20,598 nt of DNA, taken from positions 1 through 20,598 of IMG/VR virus record IMGVR_UViG_3300042467_000797, one strand, 5' to 3'. A program made the translations under genes and the position numbers. The notes below the pieces were generated by a model. The model had not been told where the DNA came from. It did no database searches and saw only the letters and a program-made list of their open reading frames with translations. Positions 1,737 to 20,429 of this stretch are shown here, piece after piece. The stretch's first letter is position 1, and each line of letters opens with the position of its first letter. Source of the stretch: a virus.

Positions 1737-2006
1737 TTACACCTTGTAGTACCAGATGCCTTCAACTTCTACGAGCTTCGCCCCGGCAGGGGGTACACCC
1801 TCTAGCTTCTGGTACACCTCTCCGGCAATCTCTTTGGTGGTATCCGGCTGCTCAACCGGAGGCGCAGTCACAACAGCAATCCAGTTGTCCCGGCGCTGTT
1901 CCTTCATGGCCTGGATCTCTGCTTCCGTGAACGTGTGATCGTCCGGGAGGTGCAGAGCGTCAGCGAATTTGCCGTGGGGGGTGTCGAATTGAAAGTCGAT
2001 CTTCAT
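1737..2006 (-). CDS. Small conserved phage protein, 89 residues, unknown function
   Basis: The protein starts MKIDFQFDTPHGKFADALHLPDDH, with the conserved-looking segment TFTEAEIQAMKEQRRDNWIAVV. The C-terminal part (residues 60-89) has a short Pro/Gly-containing motif and ends GIWYYKV. I recognise this type of small acidic protein as common beside tail-fibre genes in environmental phages, but no function is established to my knowledge. An AAGGTC lies 7 bases before the ATG. It is flanked on both sides by homing-endonuclease-like genes of different families, so the ancestral order was probably this gene directly before the fibre gene. A fibre chaperone or assembly factor is conceivable from position only. 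Confidence 0.8.
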   Translation of the reverse strand: MKIDFQFDTPHGKFADALHLPDDHTFTEAEIQAMKEQRRDNWIAVVTAPPVEQPDTTKEIAGEVYQKLEGVPPAGAKLVEVEGIWYYKV

Positions 2007-2018
2007 GGTTTTTGACCT

Positions 2019-2636
2019 TTACACGGCAACTTTTGTTGCCAAAAACCTTCGAGCCTTGGGACGAACAATAGCAGAGACAATATCCTCGCCATTGGACATC
2101 CGTTGATGCACCGCAGCTAATGTGATGCCGTAGTGATCGCACCAATCAGACAGGCATTTTGTTTTGCCATTGATTGAAAGAAGGATCGTGTTTCGCTTGT
2201 TTCTCGATTGAATCGCCCTCGAAGTCCAGCGAACATTGCCAGGCTCGTAGTTGCCATCGTTGTTGATTCGATCAAGCGTGTCTTTTGGGCTAGGCGGCTC
2301 TCCGACATCCTGGGCAAAGTTTTCAAACACTAGCCAATGTGGGGCAACAACAATTCCACGACCCCCATAGTTTGGATAGGCCGGATTGTTTGGGTTGCTG
2401 CATCGAGCTTTCATGTTGCACCAAATGTTGTACACCCGACTGTGACGCTTACCGTGGCGACGATTCGAGAATCCAGAACGCGCCAAACAACCACATGATC
2501 TCGTTCTGCCGATCCTGACCGCGCTTGCGAGCTTCACACACTCCTTGCCGCAGTCACACACCAGTCGCCACAACTTCTGACCGTGCTTGTTCGGACCCGC
2601 CTCGTCGATGAACTGCAATTGACCGTAGCGTTGCAT
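2019..2636 (-). CDS. Zinc-ribbon / HNH-like homing endonuclease with C-terminal HTH
   Basis: A 205-residue protein in three parts. A zinc ribbon at residues 22-51 has Cys27, Cys29, Cys48 and Cys50 (LVCDCG and SCGCL). A central nuclease-like domain runs from HSRVYNIWCNMKARC through NYGGRGIVV to LDRINNDGNYEPGNVRW (121-137), a signature common in phage HNH/AP2-type endonucleases. Residues 162-186 (LSDWCDHYGITLAAVHQRM) look like a helix-turn-helix of the intron-encoded nuclease repeat type. A near-consensus AGGAGGT sits 4 bases before the ATG. The 57 bases upstream contain TTGCAT and TAGCAT hexamers about 18 bases apart, a weak promoter candidate. It probably moves by homing; cleavage activity is inferred from the motifs. 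Confidence 0.87.
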   Translation of the reverse strand: MQRYGQLQFIDEAGPNKHGQKLWRLVCDCGKECVKLASAVRIGRTRSCGCLARSGFSNRRHGKRHSRVYNIWCNMKARCSNPNNPAYPNYGGRGIVVAPHWLVFENFAQDVGEPPSPKDTLDRINNDGNYEPGNVRWTSRAIQSRNKRNTILLSINGKTKCLSDWCDHYGITLAAVHQRMSNGEDIVSAIVRPKARRFLATKVAV

Positions 2637-2693
2637 AGTGACCTCCTGTTGAAAGCCACCATGCTATCAGAATCTATGCTACTAATGCAATGC

Positions 2694-3131
2694 TTATGCA
2701 ATCCGGATTATCGCGTTGCTGGCATCGGCAGTCGGGAAGATGATAGTGAACGTCCCGGCCGTCGAAGTCTTCGACCCGCCAAAGTCCAAAATACAGACCG
2801 AAGGGTCGCCCGCTGCTGAGTCGTTGTAGATCATCGCGCCAAAGGCCGTGATCGTCGCACTGGTGAACGACAAGTCCGCAAAGTCCGTGAACGCAGTCGT
2901 ACTAGAGCTCGTCGGCGTCACATTGGTCAGCGCTCCGCCGCCCGCAGAGTACGTTCCAGACGCCCCCACCTCGTTGGTCACCGTGTAGGCCGTAGTCGCC
3001 GCCGTAAACGAAGCGCTGTTGTCGTAGAGCGCCAGCTTGAACGTGTTGCCCGTGCTGGCCGTGAAGTTGTGCACTGCCCTCATCAGCTCAACCTTGAAGC
3101 TGGTGCACATAAAATTGCCGGTGAATGCCAT
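2694..3131 (-). CDS. Beta-rich small structural protein, 145 residues
   Basis: I chose the ATG at 3131 because GGAGG lies 6 bases upstream; it follows the previous stop by one base. The protein begins MAFTGNFMCTSFKVELM and is rich in Thr, Ser, Ala and Gly with alternating hydrophobic strands, for example FKLALYDNSASF and TAYTVTNEVG, ending FGGSKTSTAGTFTIIFP. It has no TM segment and almost no coiled-coil potential. Related-looking proteins occur in tail-connector regions of environmental phages and are taken as virion components. Whether it is a decoration, nozzle or fibre-base protein cannot be told from sequence. Confidence 0.82.
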   Translation of the reverse strand: MAFTGNFMCTSFKVELMRAVHNFTASTGNTFKLALYDNSASFTAATTAYTVTNEVGASGTYSAGGGALTNVTPTSSSTTAFTDFADLSFTSATITAFGAMIYNDSAAGDPSVCILDFGGSKTSTAGTFTIIFPTADASNAIIRIA

Positions 3132-5087: not shown

Positions 5088-5752
5088 TTGCTGTACAGGT
5101 TATTAAATGTTGCTTGCGCATCCATGTACGAGTCGTCCTGCTCCGCACAATGTGTCCACTGACTCGGCCTGAAGTCGGGGGCCCCTTCTCCTGTCTGCCA
5201 AAACGCAGGGCTTGTGACCCGAACGCGATTGTTTGGCAGCGCCACAATATTCCCTGTCCACTTGCCCGCATCGGTCAAGATTAGTACATGACTTTGCTTG
5301 TGCTGTGCAGGGCAATCAGCTACCTCGCTCTCCGAGTAGTCCACAGTAAACAGATACCTGCCAGTGTGAAACTCGCCGTCAATCTTGCACAGCCATGGAC
5401 TGGGGCTGGTTCTCGCAAACTTCACCACAGTGTGGTGGTGTGAAGGACAGTCCCAAGGCTGTGCCAAGTGCGTAGGCATACGCTCTGGCCACTCCTCCAA
5501 TGGTATGTCCCCCACCAGCGCTGTGATAGGCATACGCGCCCACATTGCTCCCCCATGCACGTTTTCGGAGTCATCTACCAAGCTTTCACACCCGGTAAAT
5601 ACGATCTGAAAACTCAAGCAACGATCCGGCATGGCATTTACCGCAATGACATTTGCGTGCAAATACTCGCCATGGTACTTCTGGTGCATGTGGGTAAACT
5701 CGCGTCTAACCCAGCACTTGAAGTACGGAATGTTGCTGATGAGGTAAGCCAT
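5084..5752 (-). CDS. Conserved phage protein, 222 residues, unknown function
   Basis: The protein starts MAYLISNIPYFKCWVRREF and continues GHGEYLHANVIAVNAMPDR. I recognise this opening from proteins in pelagiphage-like and cyanophage-like podoviruses. It is rich in His, Cys and Trp (for example WDCPSHHHTVVKFAR, QWTHCAEQDD), with no clear zinc motif, TM segment or catalytic signature. A middle part has GKWTGNIVALPNNRVRV. It starts at an ATG overlapping the previous stop by one base (TAATG) with no strong Shine-Dalgarno, so translation probably depends on coupling. Function unknown; position suggests a connector or tail role. Confidence 0.83.
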   Translation of the reverse strand: MAYLISNIPYFKCWVRREFTHMHQKYHGEYLHANVIAVNAMPDRCLSFQIVFTGCESLVDDSENVHGGAMWARMPITALVGDIPLEEWPERMPTHLAQPWDCPSHHHTVVKFARTSPSPWLCKIDGEFHTGRYLFTVDYSESEVADCPAQHKQSHVLILTDAGKWTGNIVALPNNRVRVTSPAFWQTGEGAPDFRPSQWTHCAEQDDSYMDAQATFNNLYSK

Positions 5753-6057
5753 TATTTTGCGCGCTTACCTCCCGCCATCATGCCTTTGGACATTTTCTTG
5801 ACAGCGCCGCCCGCCATCATGCCTTTGGACATTTTCTTGACAGCGCCGCCCGCAGCGTAGCCTTTGGACATCATGCCGCCGCCCATCATGCCAATGGGCT
5901 TGCCCATGGCCATGCGCTTGTGCTGATTGACCGCACCACCCGCCGCCATCATGACCGGGCCGGTCTTCTGGCTGGTCTCAGACACCACCTTGTTTTTCGG
6001 ACCACTGCCCACGGCCCCACCGCCACGCGTCGCGCAGCCCATTCCACGTCCAGCCAT
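5752..6057 (-). CDS. Small Gly/Met/Lys-rich repeat protein, 101 residues
   Basis: The N-terminus MAGRGMGCATRGGGAVGSG is a common start for tiny phage proteins near lysis and connector genes. The C-terminus holds two exact 13-residue repeats (AVKKMSKGMMAGG, residues 72-97), preceded by a degenerate copy (MMSKGYAAGG). The composition is basic and low in complexity, with no fold I can name. AAGGGG lies 8 bases before the ATG. Such proteins may bind DNA or be processed in the virion, but that is speculation. Confidence 0.75.
   Translation of the reverse strand: MAGRGMGCATRGGGAVGSGPKNKVVSETSQKTGPVMMAAGGAVNQHKRMAMGKPIGMMGGGMMSKGYAAGGAVKKMSKGMMAGGAVKKMSKGMMAGGKRAK
5771..5848 (-). repeat. Two tandem 39-bp direct repeats inside the 101-residue gene
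   Basis: Units at 5771-5809 and 5810-5848 look identical by eye, each encoding 13 residues (AVKKMSKGMMAGG). A partial, diverged third copy follows from 5849. The in-frame unit length means copy-number changes would keep the reading frame. Confidence 0.9.
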
Positions 6058-6059
6058 GA

Positions 6060-6296
6060 TTATTTCCCCTTCTTCATAACGGAACCACCCTTCTTCATGC
6101 CGTGCGAGGCCCCGGGCATCATGCTGCCGTCAGGCATCTTGTGCATGGCACGACCCTTCGCATCGGCCGTCTTGGTCTTCATGGCACGACCCATTTTGTC
6201 GGCCATGCCGCCCTTCTTCATCTTGCCCACACCATCGGCGGCAAAAGACGGCACCATCTTACCGCCTTTCTTCACCATTTTCATCTGCGCTTTCAT
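6060..6296 (-). CDS. Small Lys/Met/Gly-rich protein, 78 residues
   Basis: A low-complexity basic protein: MKAQMKMVKKGGKMVPSF, then KMKKGGMADKMGRAMK, and a C-terminus ending GMKKGGSVMKKGK. Repeated KKGG and GRAM segments resemble those of the next gene, which suggests a family of related tiny proteins. AGGG lies 7 bases before the ATG. No domain is recognisable. High Lys and Met with few acidic residues fits a nucleic-acid-binding or virion-internal peptide, but this is inference only. Confidence 0.72.
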   Translation of the reverse strand: MKAQMKMVKKGGKMVPSFAADGVGKMKKGGMADKMGRAMKTKTADAKGRAMHKMPDGSMMPGASHGMKKGGSVMKKGK

Positions 6297-12498: not shown

Positions 12499-12975
12499 TT
12501 ACATGTGCAAAACGTCTTCAGGATCACTGACCACGCCCAGAACCTCGTCGTCATTGATGAGCCGGATCTCACCGCCGTCGATGGGGATGCGCGCCCCGGC
12601 GTAGCGACCAAAAATGATCCAATCCCCTTCCTTGCACCACGCGCCAGTTGGGAATTTAGACTCATCAGCGTATGCCAAACTCCCTACCTTCAATACGTAG
12701 CCACAAACCGTCGCAAGATTGGATTTGCGCTGAGTCTCCTCAGCCAAAACAATCCCGCCCTTGGTTTTTTCGGCCCCGCGATAGGGAAGAATGGCAATCC
12801 GCCAGCCCGTAGGCGTTGGGACACGATCCAGAACGGCTTCATGAAGCTTGTCAGGGTCAAAACCCGACTCGGTATACGAGTCTTCAAGCCTAGGCCCCGT
12901 GCTTTCAGCTTCGTCGCGCCACTTGCGCTCTAATGCCGTCAGGTTGTCACTTTCTACAGTCTCGGTCGCGCTCAT
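12499..12975 (-). CDS. Phage-encoded GroES-like co-chaperonin with N-terminal extension
   Basis: Residues 53-158 resemble co-chaperonin 10: PTGWRIAILPYRGAEKTKGG, then IVLAEE. The mobile loop keeps its GGIVL hydrophobic motif (residues 73-77) that contacts GroEL. WCKEGDWIIFGRYAG and EIRLINDDEVLGVVSD follow, matching the GroES barrel. The protein is 158 residues against about 97 for GroES; about 50 extra acidic residues precede the domain. I chose the ATG at 12975 (AGGGG, 5 bases away) over an upstream GTG. It may adapt host GroEL for folding the capsid protein, as T4 gp31 does; this is inference. Confidence 0.88.
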   Translation of the reverse strand: MSATETVESDNLTALERKWRDEAESTGPRLEDSYTESGFDPDKLHEAVLDRVPTPTGWRIAILPYRGAEKTKGGIVLAEETQRKSNLATVCGYVLKVGSLAYADESKFPTGAWCKEGDWIIFGRYAGARIPIDGGEIRLINDDEVLGVVSDPEDVLHM

Positions 12976-12984
12976 TGTCACCCC

Positions 12985-13241: not shown

Positions 13242-13514
13242 TCAGTATATGCGAACTGGGCGATTGCCATCCTTCTTTTTCACAATCTGCACAGCCTTTT
13301 GGACCCCTTTGGGCGTCGACACCATCGTGCCGCCCTTAGCCATCTTCTTTGCCTTGCCCGCTTTCTCGTAGGCGATCGCCGCAGCCTGCTTAGTTGCAGC
13401 GCTCACGCTCTTGGGCTTACTCGTTCCGATCTTGCCCGACTCTTTGTACGAACGAACCATCTCGCCGATGTTGGAGCTGATGGTCTTTTGACTCGACCCA
13501 CGTTTAAGCGGCAT
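13242..13514 (-). CDS. DUF6496-like small basic phage protein, 90 residues
   Basis: I start it at the ATG at 13514, which overlaps the portal gene's 3' end by 11 bases. An earlier in-frame start would add residues that do not fit the family. MPLKRGSSQKTISSNIGEMV, SYKESGKIGTSKPKS, then AATKQAAAIAYEKAGKAKK matches a family labelled DUF6496 in many phages. The C-terminal part is Lys/Gly/Val-rich (MAKGGTMVSTPKGVQKAV) and ends RPVRIY. It is strongly basic. No function is known; DNA contact or a packaging role is possible but unsupported. Confidence 0.86.
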   Translation of the reverse strand: MPLKRGSSQKTISSNIGEMVRSYKESGKIGTSKPKSVSAATKQAAAIAYEKAGKAKKMAKGGTMVSTPKGVQKAVQIVKKKDGNRPVRIY

Positions 13515-15831
13515 TTGGAACCCCTTTAGGCTGCATCGTCTTGATTTCCTGCAAACGCAGGCGCTGTTGGTTGAGCTGATTGTTCTGCTGAAGCTTCTGT
13601 TGGTCAAGACCAAGCTTTTGCTGATCGATTTGAATGCGCTGTTGATCAGCTTGAGCGCGTTGTTGGATCTCCAGCCGCTTCAATTCGACCAGCGGATCCT
13701 CTCCGCCCTCGCCTGAAAGCTTTCCTTGCAAGTCCTTCATCTCCTGCATGTAGGTTGCAACCTTAATCGCCACCATGCCTTCCTTCTGGATTGCAGAAAC
13801 AATCCTATCCGGGTCCGTCCCGTACATCTTGAATAGATCCGCTTCAACATCCTCTTCCGCTTTGAGCCGAATGTGATCCAGCACGTGCTTTTGCAGCTCA
13901 ATTGCAGCCATCGGATTGGCCTGAAGCATCGGTGACATGCCCATCATCAGATGCGCTGCGATGTGCGCGTCATGTTGCTGTCCAGCAAAGGCTTTCAACT
14001 TCATCCCATTCAACACATCACTGTTCTCGGATGCCGGATCGCGGGGCATGTTCGTGTTTTGCGGCAACAAAATGCCGTCAATGTCACGAATGTTGAGCGC
14101 CGCATACATCCGATAGTACGCCTCGTACATGTTGTGCATGTTCGGGGCGCTCTGGGCAAGCTGAAGCTGCATTTGCGCGAGCTGAATGCGCTGTGCAGTG
14201 CTAAAAATGTTGGGGTCAGCGACCGGAAGCACCGACACCATGTTGCTGAAGTCCGCCTTTTTGATCCGGCGGCTTGCTCCAGGCACGTCATACGGGTACT
14301 CGTCGGGCAAATAATGCGCAAAGCCCTCAAAAAGCAGCTTGAACTCGAGCGTTTGCGCGTAATGCAGGCGCTTGTGGATGCTCGACATCACCATCGAGCC
14401 CCGTTCCAAGAGCGCCAGCGTCGTTCCGACCTGCGCATACTGGTTTCCGTCGCCTACTTGCATGTCGGCCGTGCTCGACAACCGCTTTCCAGCGTCCACC
14501 AAGAAGCCCAACAGCGCAAAAAGAACCTGACTAGGCTCTTTGTACGGCAACGGCATGAGCGAAGCCGTCAATTCAGCCCCGCCCGCATCAATATCGCGCC
14601 ACTCTCCAGGCTGAATCGGGTCAGAATCGTCCGCGATCCGTGCACCTTTTGCCTTAAATCCTGCCGGAAGGTTCGCCAACGTGCCCGCATCGATCAACTG
14701 ACGCATCGCACTGGTCGCCGCCTTTGACAAACCACCGATCAAGTGCACAAAACCAAGGCCATAGGCCCCCGGCCCCTCGACCAAGACGTAGTGTACGAAG
14801 TAGTTCCGACGGTTTTTCTGCTCATCCTCCTCCCGCCAGTTCCTACGGATGCCCACAACCTGATTCGTGTCCTCGGCCAACGTCACCACATAGGGCAACT
14901 TCACCCCCGTCGGGCTGCCCTCCTCGTCCCTGTCCTCAAATCCGGGGATGTCCAAGTCCACCAACTGCTCAAGCAGGAACACCTCCCCAATATCATCCGT
15001 CGGCTGAATCCCCACCACCTTGTCGGTGGCCGCCTGAATGGGGCTCGGATCCGCCGGCGTCGCCGACGTGTCGATCGGAATGTCCAAATACTCGCCCGCA
15101 AGCACCCGTTTCTTGAACTCGTTTGAGTCCATCGCGATGCGATGCGTCAGTCGCGGGCACTGGGACACGACACTTGAGCCGTTGTACGGGATGTAGACGT
15201 CATCGGCCAAGCACAGCTTGGACACCATGCGCTTCAATTGATGGTCGTAGTAGACCTTCTTGAACGTCGAGCCGCCGTAGCCCGTGTAAAACAAGAGCTG
15301 GTCGAACTCCGGCGTGTACTCTTCCATCACGGTTGTGATCTGGTAGTTCATGAAGTCCTGCACGCGACCCGCCTGCTGGTACTTCTCTACCGTCTCTTTG
15401 CCCATGATTTGCGTGCGCACGGGGCCGCCGGCCGGCATCAGCTCTTTGAGCGCTTGCGCCTGGAACTGGATGATCGACTCCATCAGCATGGGGTGCGCCA
15501 CGCCCGCCGCGCCACGGAAAGGCTTGGTGCGCTCTTCCATCCTCAAGCCAAGAAGATCAAGGCCCTTGGCGAACATGTTCTCCCAGTCTGACCGCGAACC
15601 CTTGTCCGCCTCGAACATCGCCGACACGTCAATCGAAACCTTGGCCAAGACCTCCGGCTCAATCACACCCGCGAGGTTGGCATAGAAGTCCACCTCTTCG
15701 GCTTCGTCACTGCCGATTGCAACCGTGGCACCGCCGTCTTCGTCGATCTCGATTTCAATCTCAACCGGCGCATCGTTCAGCGCAATGATGCCCATGGACG
15801 GGGCAGGATTTACAGCTTTGTCAATCGGCAT
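13504..15831 (-). CDS. Portal protein
   Basis: A 775-residue protein, matching portal proteins of uncultured podovirus-like phages; the portal forms the dodecameric DNA gate at one capsid vertex. The N-terminus is acidic (EIEIEIDEDGGATV). Recognisable core segments are GLRMEERTKPFRGAAGVAHP, IIQFQAQALKELMPAGGPVR, YTGYGGSTFKKVYYDHQLK, VYIPYNGSSVVSQCPRLTHR, then GLGFVHLIGGLSKAATSAMR. The C-terminus (residues 718-775) is a Gln-rich coiled coil (QADQQRIQIDQQKLGLDQQK), consistent with a long portal barrel. GAGGAA lies 5 bases before the ATG. Confidence 0.92.
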   Translation of the reverse strand: MPIDKAVNPAPSMGIIALNDAPVEIEIEIDEDGGATVAIGSDEAEEVDFYANLAGVIEPEVLAKVSIDVSAMFEADKGSRSDWENMFAKGLDLLGLRMEERTKPFRGAAGVAHPMLMESIIQFQAQALKELMPAGGPVRTQIMGKETVEKYQQAGRVQDFMNYQITTVMEEYTPEFDQLLFYTGYGGSTFKKVYYDHQLKRMVSKLCLADDVYIPYNGSSVVSQCPRLTHRIAMDSNEFKKRVLAGEYLDIPIDTSATPADPSPIQAATDKVVGIQPTDDIGEVFLLEQLVDLDIPGFEDRDEEGSPTGVKLPYVVTLAEDTNQVVGIRRNWREEDEQKNRRNYFVHYVLVEGPGAYGLGFVHLIGGLSKAATSAMRQLIDAGTLANLPAGFKAKGARIADDSDPIQPGEWRDIDAGGAELTASLMPLPYKEPSQVLFALLGFLVDAGKRLSSTADMQVGDGNQYAQVGTTLALLERGSMVMSSIHKRLHYAQTLEFKLLFEGFAHYLPDEYPYDVPGASRRIKKADFSNMVSVLPVADPNIFSTAQRIQLAQMQLQLAQSAPNMHNMYEAYYRMYAALNIRDIDGILLPQNTNMPRDPASENSDVLNGMKLKAFAGQQHDAHIAAHLMMGMSPMLQANPMAAIELQKHVLDHIRLKAEEDVEADLFKMYGTDPDRIVSAIQKEGMVAIKVATYMQEMKDLQGKLSGEGGEDPLVELKRLEIQQRAQADQQRIQIDQQKLGLDQQKLQQNNQLNQQRLRLQEIKTMQPKGVPNAA

Positions 15832-15846
15832 GATGGTTCCTCGGCG

Positions 15847-16080
15847 TTACCTAAAACGCGCAGTTTTCTTGGCAATGGTCTTGGGCTGCTTGACGAACTG
15901 CTTGCCCGCAGCCTTGCCAGCCCGCTTGGCCCGCGTCGTGGCCGCATACTCCTGCGGAGACAGAGACTGAATGGCAGCCTCCGGCAGATAACGCTCACCC
16001 GTCTTGCTCGACGGCTTCCCGGACTTGGTCCGCCACTTCTGACTCGTCCAGTCCTTCAACGACTGCTGCGGCGCTTTCAA
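15847..16080 (-). CDS. DUF5872-like C-terminal module, 77 residues
   Basis: The protein is SLKDWTSQKWRTKSGKPS, then KTGERYLPEAAIQSLSPQEY, TTRAKRAGKAAGKQF and VKQPKTIAKKTARF. This motif series matches what I recall as the second half of DUF5872 proteins of bacteria, phages and giant viruses. The only plausible start is a TTG at 16078-16080 that overlaps the upstream TGA (TTGA), with a GGGGG about 9 bases before. A second TTG lies seven codons in. The arrangement implies coupled translation with the preceding gene. It is strongly basic; a nucleic-acid-binding role is inferred. Confidence 0.83.
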   Translation of the reverse strand: MKAPQQSLKDWTSQKWRTKSGKPSSKTGERYLPEAAIQSLSPQEYAATTRAKRAGKAAGKQFVKQPKTIAKKTARFR

Positions 16081-16277
16081 TCTTTATACCCCCCGCCCTT
16101 GGCCTTGTACTGCTTCGCCAAAAGCTGCGCTTTCCTCGCGGACCACTGGCCTGCGGCCGTGCCCTGCGTTGCCGAGGCTTTGATCCTGCTGAACAACGCC
16201 TTCCGCATGCCGGGCTTCGTGTAGTTGCCTGCCTGGTTCACGCGGCTCTTACCTGCTTTGGTGCTCTTGGTTGCCAT
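16077..16277 (-). CDS. DUF5872-like N-terminal module, 66 residues
   Basis: The protein begins MATKSTKAGKSRVNQAGNYT, then KPGMRKALFSRIKA, GTAAGQWSARKAQLLAKQY and GGGYKD. The GQWSARKAQLLA and GGGYK segments match what I recall as the first half of DUF5872 proteins. I use the ATG at 16277, with GAGGG 7 bases before. A GTG at 16293-16295 would give six more residues and a GTGA overlap with the previous gene; it is a weaker option. The stop overlaps the next gene's TTG. The protein is very basic and small, likely DNA- or RNA-associated, but no activity is established. Confidence 0.83.
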   Translation of the reverse strand: MATKSTKAGKSRVNQAGNYTKPGMRKALFSRIKASATQGTAAGQWSARKAQLLAKQYKAKGGGYKD

Positions 16278-16291
16278 GGCTGTGCCCTCGC

Positions 16292-18511
16292 TCACGCGGC
16301 CTTCAGTTTAGCAAGCTGGCCCTTGGCAGTCGAGGTGTTTACGGGGCCGCCTTCTGCATACCCGCCCGGCTTCAGATGGTCCGCAATAAACCCGCCACTG
16401 GACTTGGACAACGGCTCACCGCCCTCTTCGGCAATCCCACGCAAGTACTGCCCCAACTGCTGCCGCTGCTGACCAATCTCCCCCTTCGTCGAACGCACCA
16501 CCACGTTCTCCGGCAACCGGCCCTGCGCCTTCAACTCCTCCACCGCCGCATTCATGACCTTCTGGTAATGCTTCCCGCCAACCAACATCACCTCCTCAAT
16601 CCCCTCCGGCCACTGCACCGACCCCATCGACTGCTTCACCGTCTTCACCAAATCCTCCGCCTGCTTCGGCGTCATCTTCTGGTTGTACGGCTCCAACATC
16701 TGCTTCGGCGTCACAAAACCATGTTTGGCCGACAAGATCATCATCTGCGGCTCATGCCCCGGCCGAACCTGATTCCGATACGTCTGATAAAAAACACCCT
16801 TGTACAAATCCTTCGCCTCAGCCGGCGTCGCACACTTCATGTCACTGCACGGCATCAACAACAACCGCTTCGCAGCAGGAATGGCCCGTGAGCCAAGGCC
16901 CACGGCCCCAGCGACAGCGCCCACGGCCGGCATGTTCGCCATGGCCTGACCCGTCCGATACGCCTCCGTCGGATTCAACACGTCCGCAGGCTCGGCCCCA
17001 AAATAGCCCTTCGCCCCCTCCCGAACCGGCTCCATGAGCTGCTTCAACATCCTTGAAGCACTCGACTCCTCCGTCACCGGCTGCTCCTCCGGCGAGGACA
17101 AAACTTCACCACCCTCGGCGCGCTTGATGATCAACTCTTCCAAGGGAATAATCTCCCGGCCCCCATCCCTTTTGTAGCTTTGAGACGGCAGCACAAGCCT
17201 CCGCTCTTCCGGCGTCAAAAACTGCCGCGCCTCAACCGCCCGGGATTCGGCCTCCCCCAGCAATCGCTCGTAATAAAGACGTGCAGCCGTCTTCTGCGCC
17301 TCAATGTCAAGATTTTTGGCGTTCGTTTTCCTAAAGCCCAAATAGTCCTGATAACTCTGCTTGACCTCGGGCGTGATCTTGTCCGTCTTCCACGCGTCTC
17401 TTGCAAACTCCTGCAACGAAGCAGGCTGCGCCATCTTGGCTCGCAACTCCTTCAAGATCTCGTGCGCACGAGGATCCGTAAACGCCGTCAGCTCAGAACC
17501 CCCCAAGCCAAACCCCTCCCGAAACTGGATGTCATGCTGCAACTCATGGAGCATGCCCCGGGCATTTTCTGTCCTGCCACCCGCCGTACCCAACTCAATA
17601 ACCGCTCCGGGCTGTCCGCCAGCGGTCAAAGCACTCTTGGTCTCATACGGATTCGTGCGAACCAAAATATCCCTCAGCTCCGGGTAGTTCTCATAAAGCT
17701 CCGGATGCTTAAAAACCATACCAGCAGGGCCCCTTGACACCTGACCCCGGTGCTGCGCCGCTTGGTCCGAGATCTCCTGCCGCCACTTCCCGTCCGGTGC
17801 CTTAAAGTTCCCCGTCTGCTGCCAGATCTCATCCGGCGTCGCACCCTGCTTCTCCATCTTCTTGGCCACCGCATTCGCCGCCTTGTTCCAGCCCCGCGCG
17901 CCACGGCCAATAAAAATCCCCAAAGCCGCCGGAGCACCCACCCCCGGCATGTTCGCCATGGCCTGACCCGTCTGATACGCCTCCGTCGGATTCAAAGGCT
18001 CAGTCGGCTCAAACCCAAAATACCCCTTCGCCCCCTCACGAACCGGCTCAACCAACCTCTTCAACATCTTGGACGCGCTCGACTCCTCCGTCACCGGCTG
18101 CTCCTCAGGCGAAGACAAAACCTCCCCGCCCTTCTGAAACCGCCTCCTGACCAACGGCCCACGCAGCAACGTCGGCTGCTCCAAAGTCGGCTTACCAAAC
18201 GTCGCCCTCATCAACCCACGCGCCGCATCCTCCGCCCTCTTGGCCTTCAACTTGTACTGACGCGCCAACTCCAACATGTCCGACCCCACACCCGCCTTCG
18301 GACCCTCAACCTTGCCCCCGGACAACGAACCCAACTCCATCCCCATGTCCTTGCCAAAACCCTTACTGGTCTTGGCCTCCGGACCACGGCCCGCGACCCG
18401 CTTTGCAGAAATCCGCTGCAACGAACCCCCACCCTCCGACTCCAAGGACGGCACCGCCAACAACTCATCCAACAAGCCCTTCGACTCACTGTCGTACTCT
18501 GGACCAAGCAT
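16292..18511 (-). CDS. Polyvalent protein: LPD23-like metallopeptidase domain plus DUF6884-like domain
   Basis: A 739-residue protein. Residues 1-127 are unassigned. Residues 128-192 and 467-531 are near-identical linkers (offset 339 residues; 56 of 65 identical by hand). After the first comes a domain with TGNFKAPDGKWRQEISDQ, MVFKHPELYENYPELRDI and MLHELQHDIQFREGF, which matches the large polyvalent-protein-associated domain LPD23 and contains an HExxH motif (His322, Glu323, His326). After the second comes a domain with MPCSDMKCATPAEAKDLYKG, ILSAKHGFVTPKQMLEPYN and VMLVGGKHYQKVM, resembling DUF6884. It ends KPGGYAEGGPV. Polyvalent proteins are often delivered with DNA; here that is inference. 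GGGGG lies 8 bases before the ATG. Confidence 0.85.
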   Translation of the reverse strand: MLGPEYDSESKGLLDELLAVPSLESEGGGSLQRISAKRVAGRGPEAKTSKGFGKDMGMELGSLSGGKVEGPKAGVGSDMLELARQYKLKAKRAEDAARGLMRATFGKPTLEQPTLLRGPLVRRRFQKGGEVLSSPEEQPVTEESSASKMLKRLVEPVREGAKGYFGFEPTEPLNPTEAYQTGQAMANMPGVGAPAALGIFIGRGARGWNKAANAVAKKMEKQGATPDEIWQQTGNFKAPDGKWRQEISDQAAQHRGQVSRGPAGMVFKHPELYENYPELRDILVRTNPYETKSALTAGGQPGAVIELGTAGGRTENARGMLHELQHDIQFREGFGLGGSELTAFTDPRAHEILKELRAKMAQPASLQEFARDAWKTDKITPEVKQSYQDYLGFRKTNAKNLDIEAQKTAARLYYERLLGEAESRAVEARQFLTPEERRLVLPSQSYKRDGGREIIPLEELIIKRAEGGEVLSSPEEQPVTEESSASRMLKQLMEPVREGAKGYFGAEPADVLNPTEAYRTGQAMANMPAVGAVAGAVGLGSRAIPAAKRLLLMPCSDMKCATPAEAKDLYKGVFYQTYRNQVRPGHEPQMMILSAKHGFVTPKQMLEPYNQKMTPKQAEDLVKTVKQSMGSVQWPEGIEEVMLVGGKHYQKVMNAAVEELKAQGRLPENVVVRSTKGEIGQQRQQLGQYLRGIAEEGGEPLSKSSGGFIADHLKPGGYAEGGPVNTSTAKGQLAKLKAA
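16919..17113 (-). repeat. Linker repeat copy 2 within the polyvalent gene
   Basis: Encodes residues 467-531, matching copy 1 at 17936-18130. By hand alignment about 85% of bases agree. It precedes the DUF6884-like domain. The copies are direct, 1017 bases apart and in frame. Confidence 0.92.
17936..18130 (-). repeat. Linker repeat copy 1 within the polyvalent gene
   Basis: Encodes residues 128-192, beginning GGEVLSSPEEQPVTEESSAS, with the conserved LNPTEAY and GQAMANMP segments. It precedes the LPD23-like domain. Recombination with copy 2 would remove that domain while keeping the frame. Confidence 0.92.
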
Positions 18512-18552: not shown

Positions 18553-20019
18553 TCAGTAGTACTCCGGAACAAGCTCCCGGGCAGAGGACTCAGGCACATC
18601 GTCCGTCTGCAAACTAATAAAATTCCCCTGCCGAAACCGCATCATCGCCATCGTCGTCGAATCCACCATATCATCGTTATCCCCGTTCGGGAACGCCGCA
18701 CATTCTTCGACCAACTCCTCCGCCCAATCACGGTCCGGGGCCCACACCATCCCCGCCTCAAACATCGGCGCAATCGAGTTCGCCCGACTGATCTTGTCCG
18801 TCCCCGTCCTTCTCCCACCCGGGCTATACAAAGTCACCGGAATACTCATCCGCCGCAACTCCTGCTGCAACGTGATCCCCGTCGCCTTCGCCTCAATCAA
18901 AACATTGTCCGGCTGCCAATGCTCGTACTGCTCTTTCGCGACCCGCTTCAACTCAGGAAAGTCCCACCGCCCACGCTTCACGTCCAACAAAATAATGTGC
19001 GCCCCCTCATCCTCCCCAGGATAAAACACCCCCCACGTCGTGATCACACTGTAGTCAGCCGTCTCCTTCTTCGAGTACGCCGTGTCCATCGACTGAATAA
19101 TGTAATTCACCAGCGGCGGATCCTCATGCGGCCACACCCTCCACCACTCCCGCTTCAGAATCGCACCCTCATCATTGGTCGGCTGCTGCTGATACATCGC
19201 ATTCCACTTCTGCACCGACAACGACGCCTTGACAGCATTCAACTCCTCTAACTTCCAAAACCCAGGCCACAACGGCCGACCACTCGGCAATATCGCCGGA
19301 AACTCAATCACCTCCCACTTATCCGCGTTGTGACTCGACTGCGCCTTCAATAACCGCGCCGTCAAATCCTTCGTCCCCCAACGCGTCATCACAATCACAA
19401 TCGCCCCACCCGGCTGCAACCGGGTGCGGGGGCCAGAGCTATACCACTCCCACGCATTCTCCAAAGCAAGATCACTCATCGCATCCTGCTCCGAATGCGG
19501 ATCGTCAATAATCAAAACGTCCGCACCCCGCCCCGTCATCGCACCCCCCACACCCACCGCAAAATACTCCCCTCCCCTGTTCGTATCCCACCTCCCAGCC
19601 GCCTTGCTGTCCGCCTTCAAAGTCACATCCGGAAACAACTCCTTATACGACTCCGAATCCATCAAGTCCCGCACCTTCCGACCAAAACGAACCGCCAACT
19701 CGCTGTTGTGCGTCGCTTCAATGGCCTTGGTTCGCGGCTCACGGCCCATGAGAAACGCAGGCAAAAGGTAGGACGCGAACTCACTCTTCGTGTGCCTCGG
19801 AGGCATGTTGATGATCAACCGCTTCAACGTGCCATCAGCAATCCTGTCGAAAGCTGACGCCATCTTCTCGTGATGCGGACCGAGGATCGCGGCCGGCCAG
19901 ACGTACTTGACGAAGTCCAAGAAATTCGCACGGGCACGGTCTTGCGCTTCAAGCTGCGAGAGCCGCAGCTCCAAACGAAGACGCTCCGCTTCTAACTCTT
20001 CAGGGATCAGATTTGACAT
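18553..20019 (-). CDS. terL: Terminase large subunit
   Basis: A 488-residue packaging motor ATPase and nuclease. I use the ATG at 20019, with AGAGAG 7 bases upstream; a TTG 17 codons earlier has no such support. The ATPase part has a Walker A-like MPPRHTKS (72-79), Walker B VLIIDDPH (168-175) and a coupling motif MTRWG near 211-215. The nuclease domain has acidic residues in SMDTAYS (Asp312), VLIEAKATG (Glu376) and NGDNDDMVD (Asp449/450/453). Length and motif order are full-size for the family. No small terminase gene is visible in the window; it would be expected upstream, beyond the gene-free segment. Confidence 0.95.
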   Translation of the reverse strand: MSNLIPEELEAERLRLELRLSQLEAQDRARANFLDFVKYVWPAAILGPHHEKMASAFDRIADGTLKRLIINMPPRHTKSEFASYLLPAFLMGREPRTKAIEATHNSELAVRFGRKVRDLMDSESYKELFPDVTLKADSKAAGRWDTNRGGEYFAVGVGGAMTGRGADVLIIDDPHSEQDAMSDLALENAWEWYSSGPRTRLQPGGAIVIVMTRWGTKDLTARLLKAQSSHNADKWEVIEFPAILPSGRPLWPGFWKLEELNAVKASLSVQKWNAMYQQQPTNDEGAILKREWWRVWPHEDPPLVNYIIQSMDTAYSKKETADYSVITTWGVFYPGEDEGAHIILLDVKRGRWDFPELKRVAKEQYEHWQPDNVLIEAKATGITLQQELRRMSIPVTLYSPGGRRTGTDKISRANSIAPMFEAGMVWAPDRDWAEELVEECAAFPNGDNDDMVDSTTMAMMRFRQGNFISLQTDDVPESSARELVPEYY

Positions 20020-20361
20020 AACGTGGCTCTCTTCAGACTTTACTTTAAGTTTGGATCCACGTGGAACCAAAATTTATGGCGGGGTGCAGCAATCATAAAA
20101 CAAGGGGGTGGGTTTTTGGAACAGAGCAAAGAAGGCCAAAGCTGGTCGGAAAAGGGGACCCAATTTTGTTTTGAGCAACATTTAGCGTGCGAAATCGGGC
20201 TAAAGCCTGCGCAGCTCGCGACGCGGCCTGTTTTTTGGACCCCGGTCCCCGGGCCTGGGCTCGCGGGCCGTGCGCCTGGGGCCCCGAACCGCGCACCAGG
20301 GAGCGCGGCCAGGGAGCTCGAGCGATTAGGCCAGGAGCGCGGGCCGCGTACCAGGGAGCGC

Positions 20362-20429
20362 GGCGCGTGAGCTCCAGGCGCGTGAGCTCCAGGCGCGTGA
20401 GCTCCAGGCGCGTGAGCTCCAGGCGCGTG
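20362..20429. repeat. 15-bp tandem repeat, four copies plus a partial
   Basis: The unit GGCGCGTGAGCTCCA occurs four times exactly at 20362-20421, then GGCGCGTG at 20422-20429. Each unit contains the palindrome GAGCTC. The array runs into a 22-bp palindrome. Unit length is about 1.5 helical turns, so neighbouring copies face opposite sides of DNA. Confidence 0.95.

Follow-up and report, generated by a model that had tools for sequence, protein, structure and literature searches.

Polyvalent proteins, as described by Iyer et al. in 2017, join unrelated domains in one polypeptide, and those of phages have been argued to be packaged and to enter the cell together with the DNA (PMC5512222). Here we describe a gene of this kind in IMG/VR record IMGVR_UViG_3300042467_000797, a 20,598-base sequence from an uncultured tailed phage that was analysed as a complete record (hereafter, the window). 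The open reading frame (ORF) at 16292-18511, on the minus strand like all genes and protein parts of the window located below, starts with ATG and encodes 739 amino acids (aa) arranged as header, tag, leader A, LPD23/zincin, tag, leader A, DUF6884 and tag. From the aligned sequences, its leaders are common to unrelated effectors, and both leader-effector units and bare effectors are exchanged in frame between phages that otherwise are almost the same, with seams placed at a tag, a leader end or a gene end.

The likeness to the polyvalent class of Iyer et al. (PMC5512222) is twofold. At least two unrelated domains of polyvalent type share one polypeptide (LPD23, a zincin-like HExxH region and DUF6884, with ART and PcfJ in relatives), and the gene lies in the late-gene neighbourhood of a terminase/portal phage, near the virion genes. 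To this the window family adds a leader that is repeated ahead of every effector, tags that separate the units, a constant slot between the genes for the terminase large subunit (TerL) and the portal protein, and direct evidence that near-identical phages exchange cassettes; neither LPD23 nor linker appears as a word in the main text of PMC5512222. That cassettes may vary in this class is not a new idea, because Iyer et al. remarked of a kinase locus that nearby ORFs might recombine into the main polyvalent gene (PMC5512222), although the direct evidence presented here is new. The window protein is thus a modular, recombining variant of known polyvalent proteins. A first-pass annotation of this DNA had called it a candidate undescribed system, which overstates the case for a class described in 2017; it was right in that the open-licence literature searched yielded no account of a leader repeated in this way, of a second leader, of the tags or of exchange at conserved seams, which is not proof of novelty.

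In phage T4, a short leader sends unrelated injected proteins (the internal proteins and Alt, which include an ART) into the head, and these capsid-targeting leaders are N-terminal and are removed by the prohead protease. The leader described here is likened to them for the function proposed for it, not for its sequence, and unlike them is repeated inside one protein. The MuF polymorphic toxins of temperate phages (Jamet et al. 2017, PMC5576092) offer a second parallel, being located in the packaging module and combining a constant N-terminal part with variable effectors that include metallopeptidases and ARTs. In contrast, the window protein gave no Pfam match to a MuF domain at E 1, contains several leader-effector units, and carries its leader internally as well as N-terminally. 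Giant virion proteins of the Hollowayvirus H66/F116 type hold a homologous LPD23-zincin, but there it is embedded in 3,787 aa encoded where the structural region ends, and the thresholds used revealed neither leader A nor leader B. Phage DSL-LC04 has a PcfJ-like, GG-tagged protein without HExxH in the same slot as the window protein, but leaders A and B were not found in it.

Leaders and the effectors that follow them

The first-pass annotation had reported a 65-residue linker, repeated with 56 of 65 residues identical, in front of two unrelated domains. The two copies are exactly as reported, beginning at residues 128 and 467 (GGEVLSSPEEQPVTEESSAS...) and agreeing at 56 of their first 65 residues, and Pfam matches confirm that LPD23 follows the one and DUF6884 the other. 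At the DNA level the repeat spans 200 nucleotides (nt) at 85% identity (16916-17115 and 17933-18132) and is by far the longest within a 3.5-kb region; both copies score about E 1e-29 against the linker profile. The protein opens with a header (aa 1-127; 18131-18511) that is kept in close relatives irrespective of the first cassette (L003, L004, L006, L007, L012 and L014-L016 compared). A GGEV tag with leader A copy 1 (aa 128-194; 17930-18130) then precedes the LPD23 and zincin-like metallopeptidase domain (aa 199-466; 17114-17917; placed by Pfam and an AlphaFold model), and a GGEV tag with leader A copy 2 (aa 467-536; 16904-17113) precedes the DUF6884 domain (aa 551-665; 16517-16861) and a C-terminal GGPV tag and tail (aa 721-739; 16295-16351).

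With the linker alone, a search of IMG/VR returned 40 loci; a broader profile of it gave 37, many of them on the same contigs, and a profile search over all ORFs of those loci yielded about 50 leader-bearing ORFs, or about 45 viral ORFs besides the window gene. All leader-bearing contigs are metagenomic. The first-pass annotation would have been refuted by a linker confined to this gene and these two domains, and this is not the case: the unrelated domain families found after it number four or more with names, besides several without. The domains that follow leader A fall into about ten clusters, among them LPD23-zincin, PcfJ-like, ART (ART-PolyVal), DUF6884, several unnamed domains and, by eye, a JAB-like domain. 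Leader A also forms the N-terminus of stand-alone effector genes in L037, L044, L047, L072 and L075, and in L071 two adjacent genes (690-1877, LPD23; 1873-3003, ART) each carry a leader A of their own, the pair lying immediately upstream of an endonuclease V-like gene and the terminase. This N-terminal position in genes with a single effector makes leader a better name for the repeat than spacer. The notion of a standard linker is kept in that the repeat precedes differing domains, but the standard parts are a leader, a second leader and a GGxV tag.

The second leader, leader B, is unrelated in sequence, precedes PcfJ-like, LPD23-zincin and ART-like effectors, and is encoded in 174 IMG/VR stretches. 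Distant homology between leaders A and B was considered and rejected, at 3% probability. Searches against Pfam, PHROGs, NCBIfam and PADLOC left the leader regions of both families without a match; no leader was confirmed in two scans of bacterial and archaeal genome contigs or in named phages, and neither leader was found in a phage collection that included DSL-LC04 and HTVC023P-type pelagiphages. Separately, a possible third leader (APVDLA.TAVRGTIG...GPAYGLYKG...GTPEGV) was seen in L021 and L024 before further effector domains.

The leader could be a homology arm and flexible spacer that is kept by recombination and has no delivery function, in a protein that is still a polyvalent effector. 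The predicted structure is compatible with this, as AlphaFold models the leader as partly disordered (residues 1-18) with two short helices (20-40 and 52-62), and the same job is done by two unrelated leader families. Leader islands can moreover be aligned between swapped slots, as would be the case for a recombination platform. We nevertheless consider this explanation rather unlikely, since the core of leader A is still 30-45% identical in distant phages around an invariant TGQA..N.P motif, which exceeds the needs of a spacer or a DNA arm, and since no spacer is needed at the N-terminus of a stand-alone effector gene. We favour a leader that would serve delivery, in head packaging or in ejection, because every effector is preceded by it and because, in the packaging region, effector genes that stand alone carry it too.

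Cassette exchange between near-identical phages

The window and contig 3300045999_008919 (L004/L009) agree at 99.4% along 2,965 nt that run from the terminase through the unit of LPD23 and zincin. At this point a 1,185-nt cassette of leader B and an ART-like domain takes the place, in frame, of the 747-nt cassette of leader A and DUF6884, and the sequences then match again at 97.1%. A contig from a second sample has a 5' junction identical to this one (L005/L010), and in a third comparison leader B and PcfJ occupy the same site between flanks that are 92% and 88% identical to the window (L006/L008). The interval swapped in these relatives (L009/L004 and L008/L006) is 16354-17100 of the window, and both of its seams lie on a GGxV tag (RAEGG before E/DV, and A.GG before PV), the C-terminal GGPV tag and tail past the 3' seam being common to L004 and L006. 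The seam is located where the incoming and old cassettes have no long repeat in common. Together with the leader standing before unrelated domains, this in-frame replacement among near-identical phages strongly supports the cassette design that the first-pass annotation had suggested.

Units also move separately, because in L003 the unit of leader A and DUF6884 is 86.6% identical to that of the window and the LPD23 unit 68%. In L007 the order of units is DUF6884, PcfJ, LPD23. More broadly, slot content differs in five phage sets whose terminases are 95-100% identical. TerL and portal are both 100% identical in L022/L023 at a slot coverage of 0.27; in L027/L029/L039 they are 100% and 95-99% identical, with a slot coverage of 0.29-0.35 in the L027 pairs, and L016/L017 and L025/L031 are further near-isogenic sets with differing slots. 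The leader is the main conserved island within the slot in most sets (240-430 nt; 94.6% identical in L027/L039), and the reading frame is open in all exchanged slots. Such exchange probably proceeds by homologous or homology-assisted recombination, for which the leader, the tags and the flanking TerL and portal DNA would provide the arms.

The same observations bear on a simpler account, in which the repeat is a plain tandem duplication within one gene and the differing contigs are assembly artefacts. The two copies are indeed 85% identical in DNA, the leaders are repeats, and the sequences are metagenomic. In the leader tree, however, window copy 2 groups with the DUF6884-preceding copy of L003 (support 97/98), apart from copy 1 of the window gene, and the same in-frame junction recurs in contigs of two samples at a seam where the cassettes have no long repeat in common, so that we regard this account as highly improbable. 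One leader-tree group per effector was not recovered, the L007 copies being mixed. As the tree lacks clean effector groups, we claim that leader and effector travel together for the window/L003 pair only.

Tags and effector domains

The GGxV motif occurs 78 times in 28 slot proteins, compared with 11 times in shuffled sequence. Of 36 leaders, 30 have a GGxV among the 130 residues upstream of them, where random placement would give 13, and 21 of the 28 proteins carry one close to the C-terminus, where 5 would be expected. These tags might be cut in cis by the zincin, freeing the effectors of what would be a self-processing polyprotein. Zincin autoprocessing has been proposed for polyvalent proteins by Iyer et al. 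(PMC5512222), the tags lie exactly between units, and proteins with HExxH have 3.8 tags compared with 1.9 in those without it, as a raw count per protein whatever its length. Yet 15 of the 28 slot proteins, like the slot protein of DSL-LC04, are tagged and have no HExxH, and solo LPD23-zincin genes have no tag at their ends. The tags are therefore not simply sites for a cis zincin, and we hold self-processing at the tags to be unlikely. The proposal that GGxV is a cleavage site of the cis zincin only was weakened by the same count, and an internal ribosome site in the tag DNA was dropped for want of an in-frame ATG close downstream.

GG motifs are not confined to the slot. Small basic ORFs rich in Lys, Met and Gly at 5752-6057, 6060-6296 and 13242-13613 of the window contain repeated GG motifs (AAGGAVKKMSKGMMAGG...) like the slot tags, and a 39-nt tandem repeat lies at 5771-5871. 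The slot proteins gp41 and gp42 of the pelagiphage HTVC027P (L241) have GGR(I/V)GY motifs, perhaps a marine form of the GG tag.

The first cassette of the window protein had been described as an LPD23-like domain bearing HExxH. The Pfam LPD23 match (PF18838) covers aa 199-253 (E 2.5e-12; 46.8 bits against a cut-off of 27), and the HExxH motif is present as HELQH (aa 322-326; 17534-17548), but downstream of the 58-residue LPD23 model rather than within it, in a metallopeptidase-like region fused to LPD23. The H, E and H are invariant across 55 aligned sequences, as is the GE.E of a GE.E..A motif further downstream, so that a conserved candidate third ligand follows HExxH; the third zinc ligand probably lies in the GEAE motif at aa 419-422. 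AlphaFold models most of the LPD23-peptidase part at pLDDT above 90, and the top VIA matches of the zincin model include the metalloproteases PprI (Z 6.2), 6mdx (Z 4.9) and MATCAP (4.1), all at Z below 8, a modest but coherent set of predicted resemblances. A sequence search of solved structures with the zincin and DUF6884 profiles gave nothing convincing.

Among named phages, Pseudomonas phage H66 (Hollowayvirus) encodes a homologous LPD23-zincin, 27-37% identical, within the 3,787-aa H66_0060, where the same HELQHAIQ..EGFA..GGS zincin is present (HELQHAIQIREGFAMGGS...RLAGEVEAR). According to a GenBank note, which is the sole basis for this, H66_0060 is a virion protein "verified by mass spectrometry". 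In EBPR podovirus 3 a solo LPD23 gene adjoins the terminase. Regions N-terminal of LPD23 in L093, L125 and L151 (FVPGIGQAMALRD..., PVVGDAVGL...RTPANYALTAVGMLPFVP) look by eye like the hydrophobic pre-toxin segments of polymorphic toxins.

The second effector matches Pfam DUF6884 (PF21818) at aa 551-665 with E 2.6e-16 (60.4 bits against a cut-off of 30) and contains both motifs given for this family in PMC11701544, CxxxK (CSDMK, aa 555) and LSAxxG (LSAKHG, aa 593). DUF6884 has been reported as a relative of YaaA and of a DNA-lesion-binding protein (PMC11701544). The window domain also matches the PADLOC models PDC-M57A and DpdC, and its low-confidence structure model has AF0587 (2q07; E 3.5e-4) as the best solved fold, with SMUG1 glycosylases weakly behind. 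An activity directed at DNA or bases is likely from these resemblances. DUF6884 is found as well in the giant multidomain proteins L082-L084.

The slot and the proposed delivery of its proteins

As the first-pass annotation had it, the gene lies between terminase and portal. PHROG matches identify TerL at the upstream border of the slot (18553-20070; PHROG 38, 5.7e-115) and the portal protein at the downstream border (13504-15831; PHROG 1216, 1.2e-38). Two small ORFs assigned to PHROGs of unknown function separate the slot from the portal gene (16077-16295, PHROG 17747; 15847-16080, PHROG 14910), and both are absent in L003 and L007. Among relatives of the window (TerL 62-99% identical), about 27 contigs have a polyvalent-type protein in the slot, and LPD23 or leader proteins occupy it also at only 31-35% TerL/portal identity. 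In another terminase group (L047, L071), leader-bearing solo genes stand just before the TerL, portal, scaffold and capsid genes. By terminase, the closest named phages are DSL-LC04 (of the proposed 'Dishuiviridae'; 79%) and the pelagiphages HTVC027P and HTVC023P (56-61%). The HTVC027P slot contains other proteins and that of HTVC023P one 201-aa hypothetical protein; published timing was sought for the HTVC027P slot genes, which are not named in the text of that paper.

We lean towards a reading in which the gene serves, between TerL and portal, as a slot whose cargo is exchanged by recombination, and in which its product is a polyvalent protein of tags, leaders and effectors that is packed and injected. 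The protein would be made late, alongside the head genes, be packed in or near the head, and enter the host together with the DNA. There the zincin could process its own protein or attack host proteins, and DUF6884, as a relative of proteins of DNA lesions and DNA modification, could act on DNA or protect it. A role as virion cargo is plausible from the gene position and from the annotation of the H66 zincin relative as a virion protein, the latter being its most direct support. More tentatively, leaders A and B may be unrelated "address" domains that route interchangeable effectors into heads or the ejection path, the arsenal being refreshed by cassette or effector swaps at conserved seams of a dedicated slot; we hold this to be possible rather than probable.

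Several observations weigh against the cargo-slot reading. No proteomics of virions or infected cells was found that covers this phage or any protein bearing a leader. The leader is modelled at low to moderate confidence and has no known fold, the contigs are metagenomic, so that repeated leaders could in principle mislead assembly, and GG tags occur without any HExxH in the slot proteins counted above. A Foldseek search of the zincin model against the PDB gave no match below 0.001, the VIA comparison reaching Z 6.2 at best, and H66_0060 shares the zincin with the window protein but neither leader nor tags.

The protein might instead act late inside the producing cell, in counter-defence or host takeover, or help in head assembly. 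DUF6884 and ART domains occur outside virions too, and a place beside the TerL and portal genes would suit an assembly factor. However, an assembly factor should be conserved, whereas phages whose TerL and portal are 100% identical differ in nearly all of the slot content; in H66, a protein with a homologous zincin is annotated as found in virions, and the phage polyvalent class has been argued to be packaged (PMC5512222). We therefore judge an intracellular or assembly role improbable. If the cargo-slot reading is correct, the leader provides a handle, usable from sequence only, for finding injected phage effectors, including unnamed domains, several of which already follow a leader. The question of what sends polyvalent proteins into the head would become testable, and natural swaps among near-identical phages would be ready-made experiments on how first-strike proteins change against host defences.

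Three further features of the window were recorded. Upstream of the terminase gene, 20362-20429 is a perfect tandem repeat of 15 nt in 4.5 copies, a stretch that aligns poorly or with gaps in relatives otherwise 99% identical. The ORFs at 1206-1733 and 2019-2636, between structural genes, look by eye like HNH-type homing endonucleases. The ORF at 12499-12981 is by eye GroES-like, and annotated GroES genes stand at the matching place in DSL-LC04 and HTVC023P.
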